This document shows, piece after piece, positions 2,234-18,694 of a DNA stretch of 33,607 bases. A program made the position numbers and the translations under genes. Under the pieces are notes generated by a model. It was given only the letters and a program-made list of their open reading frames with translations. It had not been told where the DNA came from and made no database searches. This DNA is from Bacteroidota bacterium (GTDB lineage Bacteria; Bacteroidota; Bacteroidia; UKL13-3). The stretch's first letter is position 1; every line of letters begins with the position of its first letter. Where the stretch lies: assembly GCA_030680835.1 (NCBI GenBank), contig JAUXUD010000059.1:1-33607 (forward strand). Reading direction: 5' to 3'.

Positions 2234-3535
2234 TTATATTCTTGCCCCTTCATCACAGATACAAATGGTACAATCACAATTTTTGTTTTTCTTGAACCTT
2301 ATTGCCTTGGCTGCTTTAAAATCTTTGCTTAAATCTGGCATTTTAATTCCTGAAAATACTTCGGCTGGAGTCAGGTGATTTAATGCATAATGAGGTCTGA
2401 GATAATTGTATTCGTAGATTATTTTTTCCAATGCAAGCACAAGCTCTTCATGAGCAAATGGTGTATTAAAATACAAATAGTTGGATTTCATAATCCTAAA
2501 AAATCTTTCAATCATTGAATTAGATTGTTTGATTGTTTTGAGAGCTACCAAATGATCAACATGAATTTGTTGTTGATCCAAAAACTGAGTTAAAAGGTGG
2601 TTGATATAATGGTTTATATTTTCTGAACCACCGTCACTTACCAGGTTTAGTTTATGGATGCTAACAGTCTGTAAAGCCTTGCAAATAACCTCACCTACAA
2701 CTTTCTTACTTATATATGTTTTGCAATCCCATGCTATTATTTTCCGTGAAAAATTATCTATAATGGCATAAATATAACTTCTGTTACCATTTTTTGTAGT
2801 AAAATAACTAAGATCCATGTGCCAATATTCGTTTACATAACTTGCCCTCAATGGACTATAAGATGGTTTCTTTCCTTTACCCCGGATATTATCAGGCAAA
2901 ATAAAACTCGCATGTTTGTAAAATGTTGAACGGGAAATATGCAGCCTCCCTTTTTTTAGTAATTCGCTGTGAATAGCACTCTTGGGCCAATTTAAGTAAT
3001 CAGGGTCTTTTAAATTGGTTTCAATGATCCTAAATTCCCTATTTGTTATTTGAAAGGGATGCCTCTTAGCACATAGTTTCATTTTACTCGAATCACATTC
3101 ATAATGAACCTTTGAATACCAGATTTGGTATAGGCTTGGACTAATCCTAAACCATTTCAACAAATCGGATTTTGAGAAATATGCTGAGAATTGTTCAATC
3201 AGAATTATAAATTCTTCCTTTTTGCTCCCTAACAATTGCAAATATCTTTCTCTGCCAATAAAATCAATTACCTTAAAGTGGAGTTTCACCACACCCAGGA
3301 GTAGTTTCTTTTTTCTGTGCCAGTTCAAATCCTCTTTTTCAAGTAATACATCCAACTGTTCTTTGATTCCTAACTCTTCCTCCAGCAAATGTAAGTCACT
3401 TTGAGTGGTGCATCTCCAATTGCTTTTGGTTTGTTTGGGGATTAAATTCTGCTGATTCATTGGAATCAGTTCCCTTTCTCTCCCGGTTGCATAAGCCCAG
3501 CGGTAAAGTGCCGGGTAAGTGTTTTTCTTTTTCAT
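2234..3535 (-). CDS. DDE transposase/integrase (rve-type catalytic core)
   Basis: This is a 433-residue transposase of the retroviral-integrase-like class (IS3/IS481-type core), which cuts and joins DNA ends with a DDE triad. The triad is visible as D241 in WHMDLSYF, D301 in SDGGSEN and E343 in SNSMIERFF, with the family marker AIIDNFSRKI after the first Asp and YNYLRPHYALNHLTP near the end. The N-terminal half is helical with probable helix-turn-helix character. The C-terminus is Cys-rich (NCDCTICICDEG). I found no convincing terminal inverted repeats or target duplication, so it cannot be delimited as an insertion sequence. It lies between the tRNA-like repeat and the replication module and may be an old insertion or that element's own recombinase. 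Confidence 0.82.
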   Translation of the reverse strand: MKKKNTYPALYRWAYATGRERELIPMNQQNLIPKQTKSNWRCTTQSDLHLLEEELGIKEQLDVLLEKEDLNWHRKKKLLLGVVKLHFKVIDFIGRERYLQLLGSKKEEFIILIEQFSAYFSKSDLLKWFRISPSLYQIWYSKVHYECDSSKMKLCAKRHPFQITNREFRIIETNLKDPDYLNWPKSAIHSELLKKGRLHISRSTFYKHASFILPDNIRGKGKKPSYSPLRASYVNEYWHMDLSYFTTKNGNRSYIYAIIDNFSRKIIAWDCKTYISKKVVGEVICKALQTVSIHKLNLVSDGGSENINHYINHLLTQFLDQQQIHVDHLVALKTIKQSNSMIERFFRIMKSNYLYFNTPFAHEELVLALEKIIYEYNYLRPHYALNHLTPAEVFSGIKMPDLSKDFKAAKAIRFKKNKNCDCTICICDEGARI

Positions 3536-8521: not shown

Positions 8522-9124
8522 ATGATATTAAGCATTGAAATACAAATACTTGATAAAATTAAAAAAGCCAGAAGGGGCACGCTATACTTTCCAGAAAGTT
8601 TTTTATCCTTTGGGAATGCCAAAGCTATTAGCAAAGCTCTGGAAAGGCTAACAAAAAACGGTGAATTGACAAGGGTGGCAACAGGCATGTACGTAAGGCC
8701 GGAAAACGACCCTGTAATTGGTATGGTAACACCGGGAATTGAGGAAATTGCCAAGGCTATTGCTAAACGGGATAAGGCCAGAATTGTGCCTACCGGTATT
8801 TATGCACTTAACAGATTGGGATTATCTACACAGGTGCCACTAAATGTAGTGTATCTTACGGATGGAGCAGCCCGCAAAATAAAAATTGGGAAACGGTCAA
8901 TTACCTTCAAAAAATCAACTCCTAAAAATGTCTCTGCGATTGGTGAATTAAGCCGCCTTGCTATTCAGGCACTCAGAACCATTGGCAAAGACAAAGTAAC
9001 TTCAACTGAAATTGAGAAAATACTCTTTGTCCTCAAAAATGAAAAGCCAGCTCATTTGTTACATGATATTCGATTAGCACCGGAATGGATACGAGTAATA
9101 TTACAACCACTAATACCTCAATAA
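8522..9124 (+). CDS. AbiEi-type antitoxin / transcriptional repressor (DUF6088 family)
   Basis: This 200-residue protein is the likely antitoxin of a type IV (AbiE) toxin-antitoxin pair. The N-terminal 60 or so residues form a winged HTH (FGNAKAISKALERLTKNGEL followed by the wing TRVATGMYVRP). The rest (about 75-200) fits the AbiEi/DUF6088 C-terminal domain, with ALNRLGLSTQVPLNVVYLTDG and a basic stretch KIKIGKRSITFKK. In this class the antitoxin does not bind the toxin; it represses the operon and counteracts the toxin's effect. The toxin gene starts 3 nt after its stop, and a perfect inverted repeat sits over its promoter. Confidence 0.85.
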   Translation: MILSIEIQILDKIKKARRGTLYFPESFLSFGNAKAISKALERLTKNGELTRVATGMYVRPENDPVIGMVTPGIEEIAKAIAKRDKARIVPTGIYALNRLGLSTQVPLNVVYLTDGAARKIKIGKRSITFKKSTPKNVSAIGELSRLAIQALRTIGKDKVTSTEIEKILFVLKNEKPAHLLHDIRLAPEWIRVILQPLIPQ

Positions 9125-9127
9125 CCT

Positions 9128-10147
9128 ATGAATAAAATTTCATTACAGGAATGGCTTAAATTAAGCGACCAAACCAAACATAATATCTTTGAAGAAATTT
9201 CAAAAATTATTGGTTTACCTCCCGCTGCCGTAGAAAAAGATTGGTGGGTGGTCCGTACCTTAGAAATTATATTTAATAGTTCCATTGCCAATCATACTGT
9301 TTTTAAAGGAGGCACATCATTAAGCAAAGCATGGGGATTAATTGACCGGTTTTCGGAAGACATAGATTTGGCATTGGACCGGAAATTCCTGGGTTTTGAA
9401 AAAGCAGACAGCGAAATGACAAGTTCTCAGGTATCCAAATTACGAAGGCTTTCATCTAGTTTTATCGCTGAAAAGTATTTTCCTGAAATAAGTGAAAAGT
9501 TTATTGAATCCGGTCTGGATGTAAAAATTCAACTCGGTGAAATTAAAGCCGACGATCAGGACCCATTGGTTATAGAAATATATTATCCTTCGGTCACCGA
9601 TCCAATCGGATATTTGCAACCAAGAATATTAATTGAGATTGGGAGCCGCTCACTTATGGAACCATTCTCAACAAAAAGTTTTGTTTCCATGGTTGGAGAA
9701 CATTATGCAGGCCGGGCTTTTGCGGATCTTCATATCTCAGTTCCAACAGTTAACCCTGAAAGGACATTTCTTGAAAAAATATTTCTGTTGCATGAAACTT
9801 TCCAGATACCCAATGAAAGAACAAAAATTGAGCGAAAGAGCCGACATTTATATGATCTTGAGAAATTGATGGACACCGATTTTGCCATTGAAGCTTTAAA
9901 TAATAAAGAACTTTATCAAACTATTGTTGAACATAGAAGAAAACTCACAACCATAAGAGGCATTGATTATGCAAATCATACCCCTGATAAAATAAATCCC
10001 ATTCCTCCGGATGAAATTATTGGGGAATGGGAAAAGGATTATATTGCCATGCAGCAAAGTATGCTTTATAATCCATCACTTCAATTTGATAAATTGATCG
10101 CGAGAATTAAAACTCTGAAAGATAAAATAAATGAGATCAAGCATTAA
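9128..10147 (+). CDS. AbiEii/AbiGii-type nucleotidyltransferase toxin
   Basis: This 339-residue protein belongs to the AbiEii/AbiGii family, DNA polymerase beta-like nucleotidyltransferases that act as growth-arresting toxins; characterised relatives add nucleotides to tRNA ends. The signature is clear: VFKGGTSLSKAWG (GGTSLSK 61-67) followed by RFSEDIDLAL (76-83), the GG..S and DxD metal-binding motifs. A later conserved block PERTFLEKIFLLHETFQ and a C-terminal helical region are also present. Length is in the usual range and the frame is intact, so it should be active. It forms an operon with the antitoxin gene. It probably serves abortive infection or stabilisation of the mobile element that carries it. 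Confidence 0.9.
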   Translation: MNKISLQEWLKLSDQTKHNIFEEISKIIGLPPAAVEKDWWVVRTLEIIFNSSIANHTVFKGGTSLSKAWGLIDRFSEDIDLALDRKFLGFEKADSEMTSSQVSKLRRLSSSFIAEKYFPEISEKFIESGLDVKIQLGEIKADDQDPLVIEIYYPSVTDPIGYLQPRILIEIGSRSLMEPFSTKSFVSMVGEHYAGRAFADLHISVPTVNPERTFLEKIFLLHETFQIPNERTKIERKSRHLYDLEKLMDTDFAIEALNNKELYQTIVEHRRKLTTIRGIDYANHTPDKINPIPPDEIIGEWEKDYIAMQQSMLYNPSLQFDKLIARIKTLKDKINEIKH

Positions 10148-13278: not shown

Positions 13279-15696
13279 ATGAACGATAAAAAGAGTCTAT
13301 CTGAACGCGATATTTGCACCAAGTATATTACTCCTGCTATCGAAAAATCTGGCTGGAACAAGCTTACACAGCTATTAGAGGAGGTTACTTTTACGGATGG
13401 TAAAATATATGTGCGGGGTAAATTAACGGCCCGGGGCAATCAAAAAAGGGCTGATTATATCCTTTATTATAAACCCAATATTCCTATTGCCATTATTGAG
13501 GCTAAAGATAACAAACATACAGTGAGGGCGGGAATTCAACAGGCTTTGGATTATGCAACCATATTGGATATTCCTTGTGTTTTTAGCAGTAATGGAGATG
13601 GATTTTTATTTCATGACCGGACAGCAAAAGAGGATAATCTTGAGTCAGAACTCCATATTGATAATTTCCCGTCTCCTGAAGAACTTTGGGAGAAATACAA
13701 AACATACAAAGGAATTAGTACACCTGCTGCTGAAAAGATTGCAGCTCAGGATTATTTTTTTGATGGTGCTGGCCGCAAACCACGCTACTACCAACAAATT
13801 GCAGTGAATAGGACAGTAGAAGCCATTGCTGCCGGTCAAAACAGGATTTTGTTGGTAATGGCTACCGGAACCGGAAAAACCTATACGGCTTTTCAAATTA
13901 TTCACCGACTTTGGAAAGTTGGAGCTAAAAAACGCATTTTGTTTTTGGCAGATCGCAATGCATTAATTGACCAAACCCGGAGAAACGATTTTAAGCACTT
14001 TAAAGATAAAATGACTGTGGTTAAGCACCGGCAAATTGATAAGAGCTATGAAATCTATCTGGCCTTATACCAGGGCTTATCTGGCAATGATGAAGATGCC
14101 AATGTGTACAAGCAGTTTTCTACTGAATTTTTTGACTTGATTATTATTGATGAGTGCCATCGGGGAAGCGCGAAAGAAGATAGCTCCTGGCGTGAAATAT
14201 TATCGTATTTTAAAAACGCCACGCATATTGGTTTAACGGCTACTCCTAAGGAAACCAAAGAAACAAGCAATACCGAATATTTTGGCGATCCTGTATATAC
14301 CTATTCATTAAAGCAAGGCATTGATGATGGGTTCCTGGCTCCATACCGCGTGGTGAGGGTTGCATTAAATGTTGATGTGGAAGGATGGCGGCCACCAAAA
14401 GGGTTTTTAGACAAAGAGGGCAATTTGGTTGAAGACCGAATCTATAACCGGACTGACTTTGACAAAAAAATTGTGGTTGAAGAAAGGCGAAAATTGGTTG
14501 CTCAAAAAATTACGGAATTACTCAAGGGCACCGACCGTTTTTCGAAATCCATTGTATTTTGTTGTGATATTGAACATGCAGAAGGTATGAGGAGTTGTAT
14601 TGCCAATGAAAACAAAGATTTGGTTTTGGAGAATTACAAGTATGTGATGCAGATTACCGGTGATAATGAAGAAGGGAAAAGAGAGTTGGATAATTTCACC
14701 AACCCCGAAGAAAAATACCCGGTAATTGCAACTACCTCCGAACTTATGACTACAGGCATTGATGCACAAACCTGCAAAATAATTGTACTGGATGCCAATA
14801 TCAATTCAATGACCAAATTCAAACAAATCATCGGTAGGGGAACCCGGATCAATGAAGAATTTGGGAAGTTTTATTTTACCATTTTGGATTTTAGAAACGC
14901 CACCGATTTGTTTGCAGATAAAGATTTTGATGGTGATCCTATCCGGCTTAAACCGGTTTCGGAAGCGGAGGATTTATCATTGGTGGTGATTGAAGAAGAA
15001 GAAAATACCTTAACTGTATTAGATGAAATTACCGGTGAAGAAATCAAATTTGAAAAAGCAAAAATTCGTTATCCGGATGGATCACAACCGGAGGGTACCT
15101 GGGCTTTCAGGGCTTCGCCCAATCGTTCCTTTCAAAAAATATATGTAAATGGGGTGGATGTTTCCGTTTTGGTAAGCCGTGAAATGTTTTTCGACCAAAA
15201 TGGTAAACCCATAACAACAAGCCTGAAAGACCATACGAAAGAAATAATAAAACAAAAATATGCATCACTTGATGACTTCTTAAATGTTTGGAATGCCACC
15301 GACCGCAAAGAAGCAATTATCAAAGAACTTAGAGAGCAGGGAGTATTGGTGGAGGCATTAACCGAAGCCGTAAACAAGGAAGTAGATTTATTTGACCTGA
15401 TTTGCCATGTAGCATATGACCAGCCACCTCTAACCCGAAAGGAAAGAGCCAACAATGTGAAAAAGCGCAATTACTTCACAAAATATGGCGAACAGGCAAA
15501 AAAGGTTTTGGAAGCCTTATTGGATAAATATGCCGATGAAGGTATTACCAATATTGAAAGTATGGAAGTGCTGAGGGTAAATCCGTTTGATGAATTTGGC
15601 TCTGTGCCAGAAATTGTTAATGGGATATTTGGGGGGAAGAAAAAGTATCAGACTGCAATCAGGGAACTGGAAATTGAATTATATAAAACGGCATGA
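13279..15696 (+). CDS. hsdR: Type I restriction endonuclease subunit R (HsdR, EcoEI-like)
   Basis: This is the motor and nuclease subunit of a type I restriction system; it translocates unmodified DNA and cuts it. At 805 residues it is of the shorter EcoEI class. The N-terminal PD-(D/E)XK nuclease has RADYILYY (D59) and IAIIEAKD (E74, K76). The superfamily 2 helicase follows: Walker A ATGTGKT (195-201), the DECH box (291-294), motif III LTATP (319-323) and motif VI QIIGRGTR near 516-523. The C-terminal third is the helical region that docks on the methylase. The frame is intact. Its TGA stop (15694-15696) lies at the edge of the inverted repeat bounding the GxxExxY gene. It heads the restriction operon. 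Confidence 0.95.
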   Translation: MNDKKSLSERDICTKYITPAIEKSGWNKLTQLLEEVTFTDGKIYVRGKLTARGNQKRADYILYYKPNIPIAIIEAKDNKHTVRAGIQQALDYATILDIPCVFSSNGDGFLFHDRTAKEDNLESELHIDNFPSPEELWEKYKTYKGISTPAAEKIAAQDYFFDGAGRKPRYYQQIAVNRTVEAIAAGQNRILLVMATGTGKTYTAFQIIHRLWKVGAKKRILFLADRNALIDQTRRNDFKHFKDKMTVVKHRQIDKSYEIYLALYQGLSGNDEDANVYKQFSTEFFDLIIIDECHRGSAKEDSSWREILSYFKNATHIGLTATPKETKETSNTEYFGDPVYTYSLKQGIDDGFLAPYRVVRVALNVDVEGWRPPKGFLDKEGNLVEDRIYNRTDFDKKIVVEERRKLVAQKITELLKGTDRFSKSIVFCCDIEHAEGMRSCIANENKDLVLENYKYVMQITGDNEEGKRELDNFTNPEEKYPVIATTSELMTTGIDAQTCKIIVLDANINSMTKFKQIIGRGTRINEEFGKFYFTILDFRNATDLFADKDFDGDPIRLKPVSEAEDLSLVVIEEEENTLTVLDEITGEEIKFEKAKIRYPDGSQPEGTWAFRASPNRSFQKIYVNGVDVSVLVSREMFFDQNGKPITTSLKDHTKEIIKQKYASLDDFLNVWNATDRKEAIIKELREQGVLVEALTEAVNKEVDLFDLICHVAYDQPPLTRKERANNVKKRNYFTKYGEQAKKVLEALLDKYADEGITNIESMEVLRVNPFDEFGSVPEIVNGIFGGKKKYQTAIRELEIELYKTA

Positions 15697-15733
15697 ACTA
15701 TGATTTAACTGATTTAATGAAGACTATGATTTT
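15695..15733 (+). repeat. Left inverted-repeat end of the GxxExxY unit
   Basis: The outer arm GAACTATGATTT (15695-15706) pairs perfectly with 16153-16164. An inner arm ACTATGATTTT (15723-15733) pairs with 16125-16135. TATGAT recurs a third time at the GxxExxY start codon (15742-15747). The outer arm begins inside the hsdR stop codon. Confidence 0.75.
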
Positions 15734-15742
15734 AATAAAATT

Positions 15743-16177
15743 ATGATTAAAGAGCAATATCCGGAAAGTGAATTGACTGGTAAAATAATTGGATGTGCAA
15801 TGGAGGTACATAAAATCCTTGGGAATGGGTTTCAGGAAGTGATTTATCAAAGAGCACTGGCGATAGAGATGAGCAGTCAGGGTTTGGCATTTAGCCGGGA
15901 ACATCAAATGGATATATACTATAAGCAAGAAAATATAGGAACAAGAAGGGTTGATTTTTTTGTGGAAGAAAAAATTATGGTCGAACTGAAAGCTGTTATT
16001 CAATTAGAGGACGTTCATCTGGCACAAGCCATAAATTATTTAGAAGCATATAATATGAAAATTGGATTACTCATTAACTTTGGCAATCAAAGCCTGCAAT
16101 TCAAAAGAGTAATGAAACCAATAAAAAATCATAGTACATCATACAATCAAAAAAATCATAGTTCAGACAATGAGTAA
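15743..16177 (+). CDS. GxxExxY family protein (probable PD-(D/E)XK-like fold)
   Basis: This is a 144-residue protein of the GxxExxY family, named for the motif present here as GFQEVIY. A nuclease-like core follows: RVDFFVEEKIMVELKAV gives the D...ExK spacing of a PD-(D/E)XK fold. The biochemical role of the family is unknown. The last 20 or so residues (NHSTSYNQKNHSSDNE) are encoded by the right inverted repeat rather than by conserved domain sequence. The gene sits between hsdR and hsdM, and its stop overlaps the hsdM start (ATG 16170, TAA 16175-16177). Relatives are often found as stand-alone inserts in Bacteroidota genomes; here it looks inserted into a restriction operon without breaking it. 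Confidence 0.88.
   Translation: MIKEQYPESELTGKIIGCAMEVHKILGNGFQEVIYQRALAIEMSSQGLAFSREHQMDIYYKQENIGTRRVDFFVEEKIMVELKAVIQLEDVHLAQAINYLEAYNMKIGLLINFGNQSLQFKRVMKPIKNHSTSYNQKNHSSDNE
16125..16164 (-). repeat. Right inverted-repeat end of the GxxExxY unit
   Basis: AAAATCATAGT (16125-16135) and AAATCATAGTTC (16153-16164) are the inverted partners of the inner and outer left arms, with another ATCATA between them (16138-16143). They encode the low-complexity tail of the GxxExxY protein and end 5 nt before the hsdM start codon. Confidence 0.75.
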
Positions 16178-17606
16178 TATAAGCGGAATAATAAAAAGCA
16201 TCCAAAATATCATGTGGCAGGACTCTGGGCTGAATGGCGATGCGCAACGCATTGAACAATTGGGCTGGATGCTTTTTTTGAAAATTTTTTCGGATAAGGA
16301 CAAAGAACTGGAACTGATTGATGATAAATATACTTCACCCATCCCAGATAAATTTCATTGGGTAAAAGAAAGAGGAAATTGGGCTGGAGATGATGAAGGA
16401 ATGACCGGAGATGAGCTCCTGGAGTTTGTTGACCGGCAATTATTTCCTGCATTGCGGAACCTGGATTTAAGCACAGGCAACCAGCGGGCTGTAATTGTGC
16501 GCGAAGTTTTTGAGGGCAATAATAATTACATGAAAAGCGGTATCAATATCCGTAAGGTATTGAACAAGCTCAATGAAATTGATTTTAACATTGCCAAAGA
16601 CCGCCATGCTTTTGGCGAATTGTATGAAACCATTTTAAAGGAACTGCAAAGTGCTGGTAAAAGTGGTGAGTTTTATACGCCTAGGGCCATTACCCATTTT
16701 ATAACCGATATTATTGATCCTAAACTGGGTGAGAAGATTTTAGATCCTGCCTGCGGAACGGGTGGCTATTTAACTTGTGCCATTGAGCATTTAAAAAAAC
16801 AAGCAAATAATGTCGCTGACCGGAAAAGTATCGAACAAAATATTAGCGGTTGGGAGTATAAACCCTTACCTTATTTATTGGCAACTACTAATTTAATTTT
16901 ACACGATATTGAAGTGCCCAATATTAAATTCGGGGATGCCCTGGATCAGCCCTTAAGTAATTTTACCGAAAAACACCGGGTAGATATCATTTTGGCAAAC
17001 CCTCCCTTTGGGGGCATTGTAGCCAATAACAACGAAACCAATTTTCCGCAAACCTACCGCACCAAAGAATCTGCCGACCTGTTTCTGATTTTAATGATTC
17101 ATCTGTTAAAGCAGGGTGGAAGAGCCGGAATTGTTTTGCCCGATGGCAGTTTAACCGGTGATGGCGTGAAGCAAAGAGTAAGGCAAAAACTGCTGGAAGA
17201 ATGCAACTTGCATACCATTATTCGCCTGCCTAATTCTGTTTTTCAACCTTATGCGACGGTTGCAACCAATTTATTATTTTTTGATAAAGGTAAACCGACT
17301 AAGGATATTTGGTATTACGAACACCGGATGCCGGAAGGCTACAAAGCCTATAATAAAACCAGACCCATCCAGGCAAAAGAGTTTGAACCCATTAAAACAT
17401 GGTGGAAGAAGAGAACCGAAAGTGAAATTAGCTGGAAGGTTAATATCAAAACCATTATTGAAAGGGGCTATGATTTAGACATCAAGAACCCAACAAAAAA
17501 AGAAGAAGAGAAAGAGCATTCGAGCGCTGAATTGATGGAAATGCTCCATGCTTCATTCGAAAAAAGCAATGCTTTGTTAGAACAATTAAAACAGGCCGTA
17601 AAATGA
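16170..17606 (+). CDS. hsdM: Type I restriction-modification DNA adenine methylase (HsdM)
   Basis: This 478-residue N6-adenine methyltransferase subunit of the type I complex protects host DNA and, with HsdS and HsdR, forms the restriction enzyme. The helical HsdM N-terminal domain covers about 1-135 (DSGLNGDAQRIEQLGWMLFLKIF). The catalytic domain has the SAM-binding motif DPACGTGG (192-199) and the catalytic NPPF (277-280). GEFYTPRAITHF (167-178) is the conserved approach to motif I. No defect is visible. Its start is overlapped by the GxxExxY stop, and its own stop overlaps the DUF1016 start (ATGA at 17603-17606). Confidence 0.95.
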   Translation: MSNISGIIKSIQNIMWQDSGLNGDAQRIEQLGWMLFLKIFSDKDKELELIDDKYTSPIPDKFHWVKERGNWAGDDEGMTGDELLEFVDRQLFPALRNLDLSTGNQRAVIVREVFEGNNNYMKSGINIRKVLNKLNEIDFNIAKDRHAFGELYETILKELQSAGKSGEFYTPRAITHFITDIIDPKLGEKILDPACGTGGYLTCAIEHLKKQANNVADRKSIEQNISGWEYKPLPYLLATTNLILHDIEVPNIKFGDALDQPLSNFTEKHRVDIILANPPFGGIVANNNETNFPQTYRTKESADLFLILMIHLLKQGGRAGIVLPDGSLTGDGVKQRVRQKLLEECNLHTIIRLPNSVFQPYATVATNLLFFDKGKPTKDIWYYEHRMPEGYKAYNKTRPIQAKEFEPIKTWWKKRTESEISWKVNIKTIIERGYDLDIKNPTKKEEEKEHSSAELMEMLHASFEKSNALLEQLKQAVK

Positions 17607-18694
17607 ATTTAGAACAACAATTTGCTGAAATAATAGCTATTATTAAGCAAGCGCGGAGCAACGCTTATAAAGCAGTTAATACCGAGTTGATCAATCATTA
17701 TTGGAATATTGGCAGCTATATTCATATTAAGTTGGCAAACGCCCAATGGGGTGAAAAAACGGTTGAAGAGTTGGCCTCATTTATAGAAAAAAAGCATCCT
17801 GAATTAAAGGGGTATAATCGCCGGGGCTTGTATAGAATGAAACAATTTTATGAAACTTACGCCTCTTCTGCAATTGTGTCCCCACTGGTGACACAATTGC
17901 AAATGACTGAAAAACAGGGAGATGAAATTGTGTCACCAGTGGTGACACAATTAGAAATAAGTGATATAAAAAAAAGCATTTTGACCCAAATAAGCTGGTC
18001 GCATCATTTGATTATTATTTCGAAAGCTAAGTTAGCAGAAGAAAGGGAATTTTATATCCGACTATGCATAAAAGAGCGATATGGCAAAAGAGAATTGGAA
18101 CGACAAATAAATAGTGGGGTTTTTGAAAGAGTTATTTCGGGAAACTTAAAACTCTCAACGGTGCTGAGAGAAATATATCCAAACATAGAAGATACTTTTA
18201 AAGATACTTACGTGTTTGAATTTGTAAATCTTCCCGACCCCCATTACGAGAGTGATTTGCAAAAAGGCCTGATCAAACAAATGAAAAATTTTATCCTGGA
18301 GCTGGGTAAAGATTTTTTATTTGTTGGAGAAGAATACCGCTTACAGGTGGGAAACAAAGATTTTTTCAGCGATTTGGTATTCTATCACCGGGGCTTGCAA
18401 TGCCTGGTTGCATTTGAGCTAAAAACCACCGAATTTGAACCGGAACACCTGGGTAAACTAAATTTTTACCTGGAAGCCCTGGATCGGGATGTAAAAAAAC
18501 CACATGAAAATCCAAGCATTGGGGTGCTCTTATGCAAAAACAAAAACGAAGAAGTAGTTGAATATGCCATGAGCCGCAACCTATCGCCAACGCTCATCAG
18601 TCAATACACCATTGCCTTGCCCGATAAAAAGTTACTCCAGGCAAAATTGCATGAATTATATGAATTGTACGAATCTAAAGAGGATGCAGAATGA
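17603..18694 (+). CDS. DUF1016/YhcG-type PD-(D/E)XK nuclease-domain protein
   Basis: This 363-residue protein has two domains. The N-terminal DUF1016 domain (about 1-185) has the typical NTELINHYWNIGSYI and YNRRGLYRMKQFYETY, and the ISWSHHLIIISK motif at 130-141. The C-terminal YhcG nuclease domain has FSDLVFYHRGLQCLVAFELK, with D257, E272 and K274 as likely active-site residues. Such genes commonly sit inside type I restriction operons; their contribution is unclear. It overlaps hsdM and hsdS by 4 nt on each side (ATGA), so it is translated with them. Unusually, the linker just before the SWSHH motif contains two copies of IV-SP-x-VTQL (91-99, 109-117), each encoded by a palindrome. Confidence 0.9.
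   Translation: MNLEQQFAEIIAIIKQARSNAYKAVNTELINHYWNIGSYIHIKLANAQWGEKTVEELASFIEKKHPELKGYNRRGLYRMKQFYETYASSAIVSPLVTQLQMTEKQGDEIVSPVVTQLEISDIKKSILTQISWSHHLIIISKAKLAEEREFYIRLCIKERYGKRELERQINSGVFERVISGNLKLSTVLREIYPNIEDTFKDTYVFEFVNLPDPHYESDLQKGLIKQMKNFILELGKDFLFVGEEYRLQVGNKDFFSDLVFYHRGLQCLVAFELKTTEFEPEHLGKLNFYLEALDRDVKKPHENPSIGVLLCKNKNEEVVEYAMSRNLSPTLISQYTIALPDKKLLQAKLHELYELYESKEDAE
17871..17899. repeat. Palindrome 1 inside the DUF1016 gene
   Basis: This is a 29-nt palindrome with 14-bp arms, an odd centre base and a single mismatched pair (CAATTGTGTC ... GACACAATTG). It encodes the in-frame peptide IVSPLVTQL. Confidence 0.8.
17926..17952. repeat. Palindrome 2 inside the DUF1016 gene
   Basis: This is a perfect 27-nt palindrome (13-bp arms around a central G) with the same core as palindrome 1. 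It encodes IVSPVVTQL, 18 codons after the first copy. Confidence 0.8.

Follow-up and report, generated by a model that had tools for sequence, protein, structure and literature searches.

How does a gene of the GxxExxY family, which is common and, to our knowledge, has no assigned function, come to stand exactly between the hsdR and hsdM genes of a type I restriction-modification operon? The question is raised by contig JAUXUD010000059.1 of a Bacteroidota bacterium (assembly GCA_030680835.1; 4.30 Mb in 104 contigs), of which we analyzed a stretch of 33,607 nucleotides, hereafter the window. We consider it probable, though far from settled, that positions 15694-16169 hold one member of a family of small mobile units, in which a nuclease acts on and spreads its cognate arms as a selfish unit resembling RAYT genes with their repetitive extragenic palindromes (REPs) and REPINs. 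Each such unit consists of a gene for a PD-(D/E)XK nuclease of about 145 amino acids between inverted arms, which are built from short units with a 9-nt period. The features of the locus are as follows.

13279..15696, + strand: hsdR, restriction subunit of the EcoAI/FtnUII family of type I enzymes, upstream host gene (NF046051, 1157 bits)
15694..15747, + strand: left arm, with the outer repeat at 15694-15706 (TGAACTATGATTT), the inner repeat at 15723-15733 and a third TATGAT (15742) that includes the GxxExxY start codon
15743..16177, + strand: GxxExxY gene, 144 amino acids, PD-(D/E)XK nuclease fold (TIGR04256, 141.6 bits; PF13366, 135.6 bits)
16125..16169, + strand: right arm, with the inner repeat at 16125-16135, a middle ATCATA at 16138 and the outer repeat at 16153-16165, followed by GACA to complete the frequent end AATCATAGTTCAGACA
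16170..17606, + strand: hsdM, downstream host gene, its start codon directly after the right end of the element (TIGR00497, 93.8 bits, below the cut-off; N6_Mtase and HsdM_N above theirs)

The arms pair over 27 nt (15694-15720 with 16139-16165, 81% complementary), and further in, 15723-15733 and 16125-16135 pair perfectly over 11 bp. None of 5000 dinucleotide shuffles reached the arm alignment score of 45 (maximum 32), and when 890 pairs of window segments at the same spacing were scored, 45 was reached only by the element itself. A preliminary description of this DNA had proposed outer and inner repeats of 12 and 11 bp; the inner length was correct, whereas the outer repeat is a perfect 13 bp. 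All three TATGAT/ATCATA units that it saw on each side were located, at 15699, 15725 and 15742 on the left and at 16128, 16138 and 16155 on the right. The left arm does begin in the hsdR stop codon, its first base being the T of the shared TGA (15694-15696). The right arm extends to 16165, just before the hsdM ATG at 16170 as described, but the distance is 4 nt (GACA) instead of 5. The GxxExxY frame overlaps hsdM by 8 nt (16170-16177), and most of the low-complexity tail of the protein is indeed encoded by the repeat: residues 129-144, with pLDDT below 50, come from the right arm and the hsdM start. Relatives of the window unit frequently begin with (T)GTCTGAACTATGATT, and the left end in the window is probably this common end minus a few bases.

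We compared the junction with those of related operons. Relatives of the hsdR C-terminus were found in 17 of the 295 genomes of the class, the source genome included. At two loci, L121 and L124, hsdM directly follows hsdR without GxxExxY (hsdR C-terminus 84 and 82% identical, hsdM 92 and 91%), and the same order was found at L126 and L125. The junctions read GCGTAAGAAATAATGAGC in L121, GCATAAAAAAGAATGAGC in L124, GCATAACAATGAGC in L126 and GCATGAGTAAC in L125, against GCATGAAC...TTCAGACAATGAGT in the window. Because these related hsdR-hsdM operons lack GxxExxY, the window segment is an insertion at the hsdR-hsdM junction, exactly where the preliminary description had put it; junctions free of the gene are the opposite of a GxxExxY gene always present at this place. 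In a second hsdR family, which provides an independent comparison, six genes (L174, L181, L199, L204, L166 and L182) run into the left end GTCTGAAC with GxxExxY behind it. Five of these six read TATGATGTCTGAAC, from one old insertion or from repeated ones, and eight relatives of this family among the 295 class genomes end in GAGTAA or similar, with no GxxExxY within the stretch examined. The hsdR-hsdM junctions of other relatives carry unrelated open reading frames (ORFs) of 311, 298, 256 and 212 amino acids. The 212-amino-acid ORF (L132:850-1488, - strand) has a Y1_Tnp match at 23.9 bits against a cut-off of 23 and is possibly a RAYT; the other three ORFs are those of L122, L123 and L128.

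The layout is shared by other GxxExxY genes. The family was present in 40 of the 60 genomes searched, the source genome included, and 111 of the 129 matches were taken as loci, of which 109 were scored. Arms scoring at least 30 flanked 64 of these 109 genes, in contrast to 4 of 217 control ORFs under the same scoring; in a first set, the counts were 45 of 71 GxxExxY loci and 1 of 133 control ORFs. Read by eye, the arms are of several kinds, including TATGATT/CTGATTT (as in the window), CACAGAG/CGCAAAG, CGCAGATT and ACAGGATT; the tests themselves used k-mers or alignment scores. Arm autocorrelation peaked at 9 nt, both across 63 units (z = 21.2) and across 56 units of clade A (z = 10.8). Ends of the ATCATAG type, which the preliminary description had suggested seeking around other GxxExxY genes, do recur there.

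Genes of the S23 family (PF05635) also lie between inverted arms, which scored at least 30 in 19 of 28 loci; 28 of 30 loci were scored, each by its best-scoring candidate ORF, and the ORF for L223 is probably wrong. Here the autocorrelation peaks lie at 7 and 14 nt (z = 21.2 and 23.6, 21 units), and examples of the 7-nt units in the S23 loci L217-L246 are GTTTAAx, TTAGGxx and GACCATA.

Similar units occupy unrelated surroundings, and their likeness usually stops at or near the arms: among 163 pairs of loci with at least 75% nucleotide identity, only 4 stay alike for more than 200 nt into a flank. A search with eight clade-A proteins gave at least 567 relatives, of which 80 were kept; among the matches listed, the titles name Bacteroidota, Nitrospirae, Chloroflexi (Oscillochloris, Anaerolineales), Cyanobacteria, Calditrichota and others. 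Carriage on plasmids or phages was considered as a route of spread and rejected, as protein matches at E ≤ 1e-5 occurred in 8 of 72,556 plasmid records and in none of the phage records.

The units recur at gene ends. After removal of duplicate loci, 48 of 60 distinct recognized left ends lay where an ORF of at least 100 codons, read in the same direction, terminates, compared with 5.6% of random positions, which are a loose control because operon genes follow one another closely. In 35 of these 48 cases the stop codon falls within the element, so that the upstream protein gains a short C-terminal extension, for example V-stop or SEL-stop. On the other side, the ATG of an ORF of at least 60 codons followed within 3 nt in 17 of 50 recognized right ends (49 after removing a duplicate; 38 of 88 loci had no recognized right end). 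Two duplicate pairs of loci (L066 = L185 and L040 = L151) were dropped from the pair and duplication tests and are counted twice in the right-end, own-arm and mismatch counts. Units outside clade A were co-directional in 57 of 77 cases versus 16.7% at random; this may be normal operon structure and was not used as evidence. The proposal of a selfish insert harmless to its host operon thus holds for the insertion, harmlessness is consistent with the upstream stop inside the element, and selfishness is a matter of interpretation, to which we return below.

The neighbors raise the possibility that GxxExxY is an accessory part of a restriction-modification or other defense system. Type I restriction-modification genes are common around clade A: among the families listed (25 of 47 upstream and 25 of 45 downstream), Methylase_S was found upstream in 16 of 61 cases, EcoR124_C in 6 and EcoEI_R_C in 1, and HSDR_N downstream in 10 of 58. 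However, adenylosuccinate synthetase, RuvX and saccharopine dehydrogenase also occur upstream, related hsdR-hsdM pairs do without GxxExxY, and unrelated genes, including the one with the Y1_Tnp match, occupy the same junction. We rejected a function specific to restriction-modification because of these varied neighbors, and regard a defense accessory as very improbable.

We analyzed whether arms and protein vary together in 81 of the 109 loci (arm score at least 24, domain of at least 90 columns). Between genomes, protein identity was associated with the 5-mer similarity of the arms (Mantel rho = 0.203, permutation standard deviation 0.036, 0 of 500 permutations), whereas equally long flanks further out showed no such association (rho = -0.02, 361 of 500). 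The association also held between families (rho = 0.212) and below 60% protein identity (rho = 0.163), with 0 of 1000 permutations reaching it in each case. Within clade A, left arms matched their own right arms better than those of other units (mean score 30.6 versus 23.2, standard deviation 0.68, 0 of 5000 permutations), a preference on average that is expected if both arms are kept complementary. In addition, three loci of a single genome (L004, L032 and L043 of G045) carry arms that differ by eye. Arms thus track the protein across families and differ within one genome, which suggests a long-lasting partnership between them.

Arm-like hairpins are also dispersed without a gene. In the source genome, eight sites match TCTGAACTATGATT with at most one mismatch, compared with none for the control. 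By eye, one of the eight is the window unit, those in L073, L074 and L079 are solo left ends, and three may be chance matches. The remaining one is a left-type end preceded by an apparent C-terminal piece of a GxxExxY gene (L078:1380-1560), probably a decayed unit. Across the class, TCTGAACYATGATT was found in 35 of 295 genomes and its reversed control in 6, and 5 of 20 stretches with TCTGAACYATGATT (L277, L278, L279, L280 and L296) are, as read by eye, gene-free hairpins 86-134 nt long in which both ends match exactly. The CACAGAG pattern occurred in 16 of 296 genomes of the phylum, with 39 copies in G573; by eye, the CACAGAG stretches of G573, G316 and G446 have facing arms without a gene-sized gap in 14 of 16 cases. 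A separate repeat was seen in another genome, where a direct tandem run of CACAGAGG units with a period of 8 gives eleven overlapping matches (G478:C1:3186762-3186856).

Repeats and genes tend to occur together. Repeat-positive genomes carried clade-A genes (E ≤ 1e-39, a threshold chosen once a gap in the scores was apparent) more often (15/45 versus 20/250, odds ratio 5.75, p = 2e-5), also after G029 and G064, in which the unit's own arm is the sole repeat, had been removed by hand (13 versus 20, odds ratio 4.7, p = 3e-4). Among 14 GxxExxY loci from repeat-bearing genomes, the ends of those in G573 (L313) and G188 (L324) resemble hairpins of the same genome, and those in G258 and G158 do so partly.

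The protein itself belongs firmly to its family. The profile scores of the window GxxExxY lie far above the curated cut-offs of 35 bits (TIGR04256) and 22 bits (PF13366, PDDEXK_3), and the motif residues are G29-x-x-E32-x-x-Y35; by score and motif it is a full member, and the family names are silent on repeats, mobility and function. In the Pfam scan PF13366 was the only match, with no Y1/HUH, DDE transposase or S23 domain. Residues D71, E81 and K83, which we take to be the catalytic set of the PD-(D/E)XK fold, fall in invariant or near-invariant alignment columns. The structure was predicted with a pLDDT of 85 and a pTM of 0.77. Its top Foldseek match was the Cas4 protein SSO0001 (E = 9e-5), and only Cas4 chains reached E ≤ 0.001; weaker matches were Cas4-like ACE1, lambda-type exonucleases, tRNA splicing endonucleases and an archaeal Holliday junction resolvase. 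A sequence search of the PDB gave no relative up to E = 10. The predicted model therefore places GxxExxY among the PD-(D/E)XK nucleases, a fold it has in common with Cas4, ACE1, the lambda-type exonucleases and the archaeal resolvase, and names no substrate. In the accessible part of one study, one gene was called GxxExxY by one program and cas4 by another (PMC8934634).

Whether the arms work as RNA or DNA bears on a different explanation; the preliminary description had likewise considered a folded RNA segment that is removed or processed. As in a 23S rRNA intervening sequence, RNase III would cut the stem formed by the paired arms of the transcript, and either the segment would be lost from the hsd mRNA or the message would be split in two. 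The layout is that of the S23 genes and, in the part of the source available, of the 23S rRNA intervening sequences (PMC4990558), and the predicted sense-strand fold pairs both arms. This fold has a modest advantage over those of shuffled sequences (z = -1.98; 3 of 100 did as well), and the antisense strand folds relatively better (z = -2.94). Selection for a sense-RNA stem would give more G-U than A-C mismatches; we found no such excess, with 57 G-U versus 101 A-C in 62 units and 139 versus 181 in 81 units, a sign opposite to sense-RNA selection, although the count is only weak evidence because arm composition can bias it. Positions 15400-16400 had no Rfam match up to E = 1, group I and II introns included. 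Moreover, the arm period is 9 and not 7 nt, and the site is a gene junction and not rRNA. We therefore take the arms, with modest confidence from such sequence comparisons, to act as DNA, and consider a processed RNA segment decidedly unlikely, with some room left for processing.

These findings are consistent with a nuclease that would recognize the arms cognate to it, which probably form hairpins or cruciforms in the DNA, and would cause both the unit and gene-less hairpins to be copied into new locations, as is thought for RAYTs with REPs and REPINs. Insertions would persist mainly at the 3' ends of co-directional genes through selection for harmless sites, because a stop codon comes early in the left end and a start codon can follow the right end directly. 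The operon would then keep working, and GxxExxY would be transcribed without a promoter of its own.

Several observations weigh against this reading. No movement has been observed; movement by the nuclease and selfishness of the unit are what we infer. There was no fixed target-site duplication among 47 units (lengths 3-5, no offset beyond permutations). ATGA does stand on both sides of the window unit (GGCATGA / ATGAGT), as it does at L166 and L204, but we claim no duplication because the 47 units gave no consistent one. Recent copying within genomes is rare: of 81 genes, no more than 8 had their nearest relative in the same genome; a pair in G043 shares 94% identity. Arms scored below 30 in 45 of the 109 genes, the Mantel association fades below 45% protein identity (reached by 50 of 500 permutations), and the own right arm outscored all others in only 13 of 87 cases. 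The structural matches of the model are weak, with TM-scores of 0.49 or lower. Units in G316 and G143 lack arms like the hairpins of those genomes, a clade-A gene is missing from 20 of 35 repeat-positive genomes, and three of 12 repeat-bearing genomes searched (G231, G126 and G446, with 11, 4 and 4 pattern matches) show no GxxExxY. A strict dependence of the repeats on a gene in the same genome is thereby ruled out. The eleven matches in G231 are copies of TCTGAACYATGATT, some of them in L284-L290.

The genomes that have repeats and no detected GxxExxY, together with the scarcity of recent same-genome copies, also favor a unit that does not move itself: something else would spread the hairpins, and GxxExxY would be settled cargo or use them as regulatory or protective ends. 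Against it, arm sequence tracks the protein across families, and arms differ between the units of one genome (G045). We consider such a passive role unlikely and still prefer a nuclease that spreads its own arms.

Among known systems, RAYTs are the closest in architecture. In the parts of the sources available, a RAYT gene lies between two inverted palindromic repeats, gene-less repeats are dispersed, and the repeats vary with the protein (PMC2817692, PMC3116915, PMC8266576). GxxExxY units have the same flanking inverted repeats, dispersed gene-less repeats (clear in G573 and G188, not in G316 or G143) and variation of repeats with protein. They differ in having a PD-(D/E)XK enzyme instead of an HUH/tyrosine (Y1) transposase, arrays of 9-nt period, ends that often abut stop or start codons, and an arm association that is not seen for every gene. 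Their unrelated enzyme places them outside the RAYTs. They also lack the DDE transposase and fixed-length target-site duplication of DDE insertion sequences.

The 23S rRNA intervening sequence described in the accessible part of PMC4990558, where it is called selfish, is bounded by a 28-bp terminal inverted repeat whose loop carries an S23 ORF, preceded by tandem heptamers. In both, terminal inverted repeats enclose a loop with a short ORF, and tandem short units lie beside the ORF. The window unit has another protein, belongs to a group with a lag of 9 and not 7 nt, stands at an operon gene junction instead of in 23S rRNA, and shows no sign of sense-RNA selection. TAACTGA heptamers, as far as the available part of PMC4679880 goes, are likewise short tandem repeats between genes of distant lineages (Beggiatoaceae, Cyanobacteria, Bacteroidetes); those are direct repeats before start codons, and no flanked nuclease gene or inverted arms are described there. 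In titles and the beginnings of abstracts on S23, intervening sequences and REP-like repeats, we recognized no description of GxxExxY units, and in the literature searched the name GxxExxY occurred in two papers, PDDEXK_3 and six repeat strings in none; subscription journals and preprints lie outside both searches. Tentatively, and with somewhat less than even confidence, GxxExxY units may be the autonomous members of a separate mobile class, in which a Cas4-like nuclease would cut the hairpin arms, phased at 9 nt, of its own unit and would spread both unit and gene-less hairpins into gene ends, with the 7-nt-phased S23 units, including the 23S rRNA intervening sequences, as a sister class of the same architecture with a different protein.

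Elsewhere in the window, a DUF1016/YhcG PDDEXK nuclease gene (17603-18694) lies between hsdM and an hsdS-like gene, overlapping each by 4 nt, and hsdR, GxxExxY, hsdM and these two genes all run in one direction. Apart from this operon, a separate hsdS-like type I specificity gene (307-1803, under the model cut-off) adjoins an rve integrase-type transposase gene (2234-3535), and positions 8522-10147 hold an AbiEi/AbiEii type IV toxin-antitoxin pair, with the AbiEi match under its cut-off.

Because the units recur at gene ends in many bacteria and short gene-free copies of such repeats are scattered through some genomes, they have the look of mobile DNA that is widespread and has attracted little notice. 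If GxxExxY proteins are the partners of dispersed hairpins, the gene family and the many CACAGAG- and TATGATT-type repeats would have one explanation, which may also account for how rRNA intervening sequences arose, and each clade of the family would have its own predicted DNA substrate.

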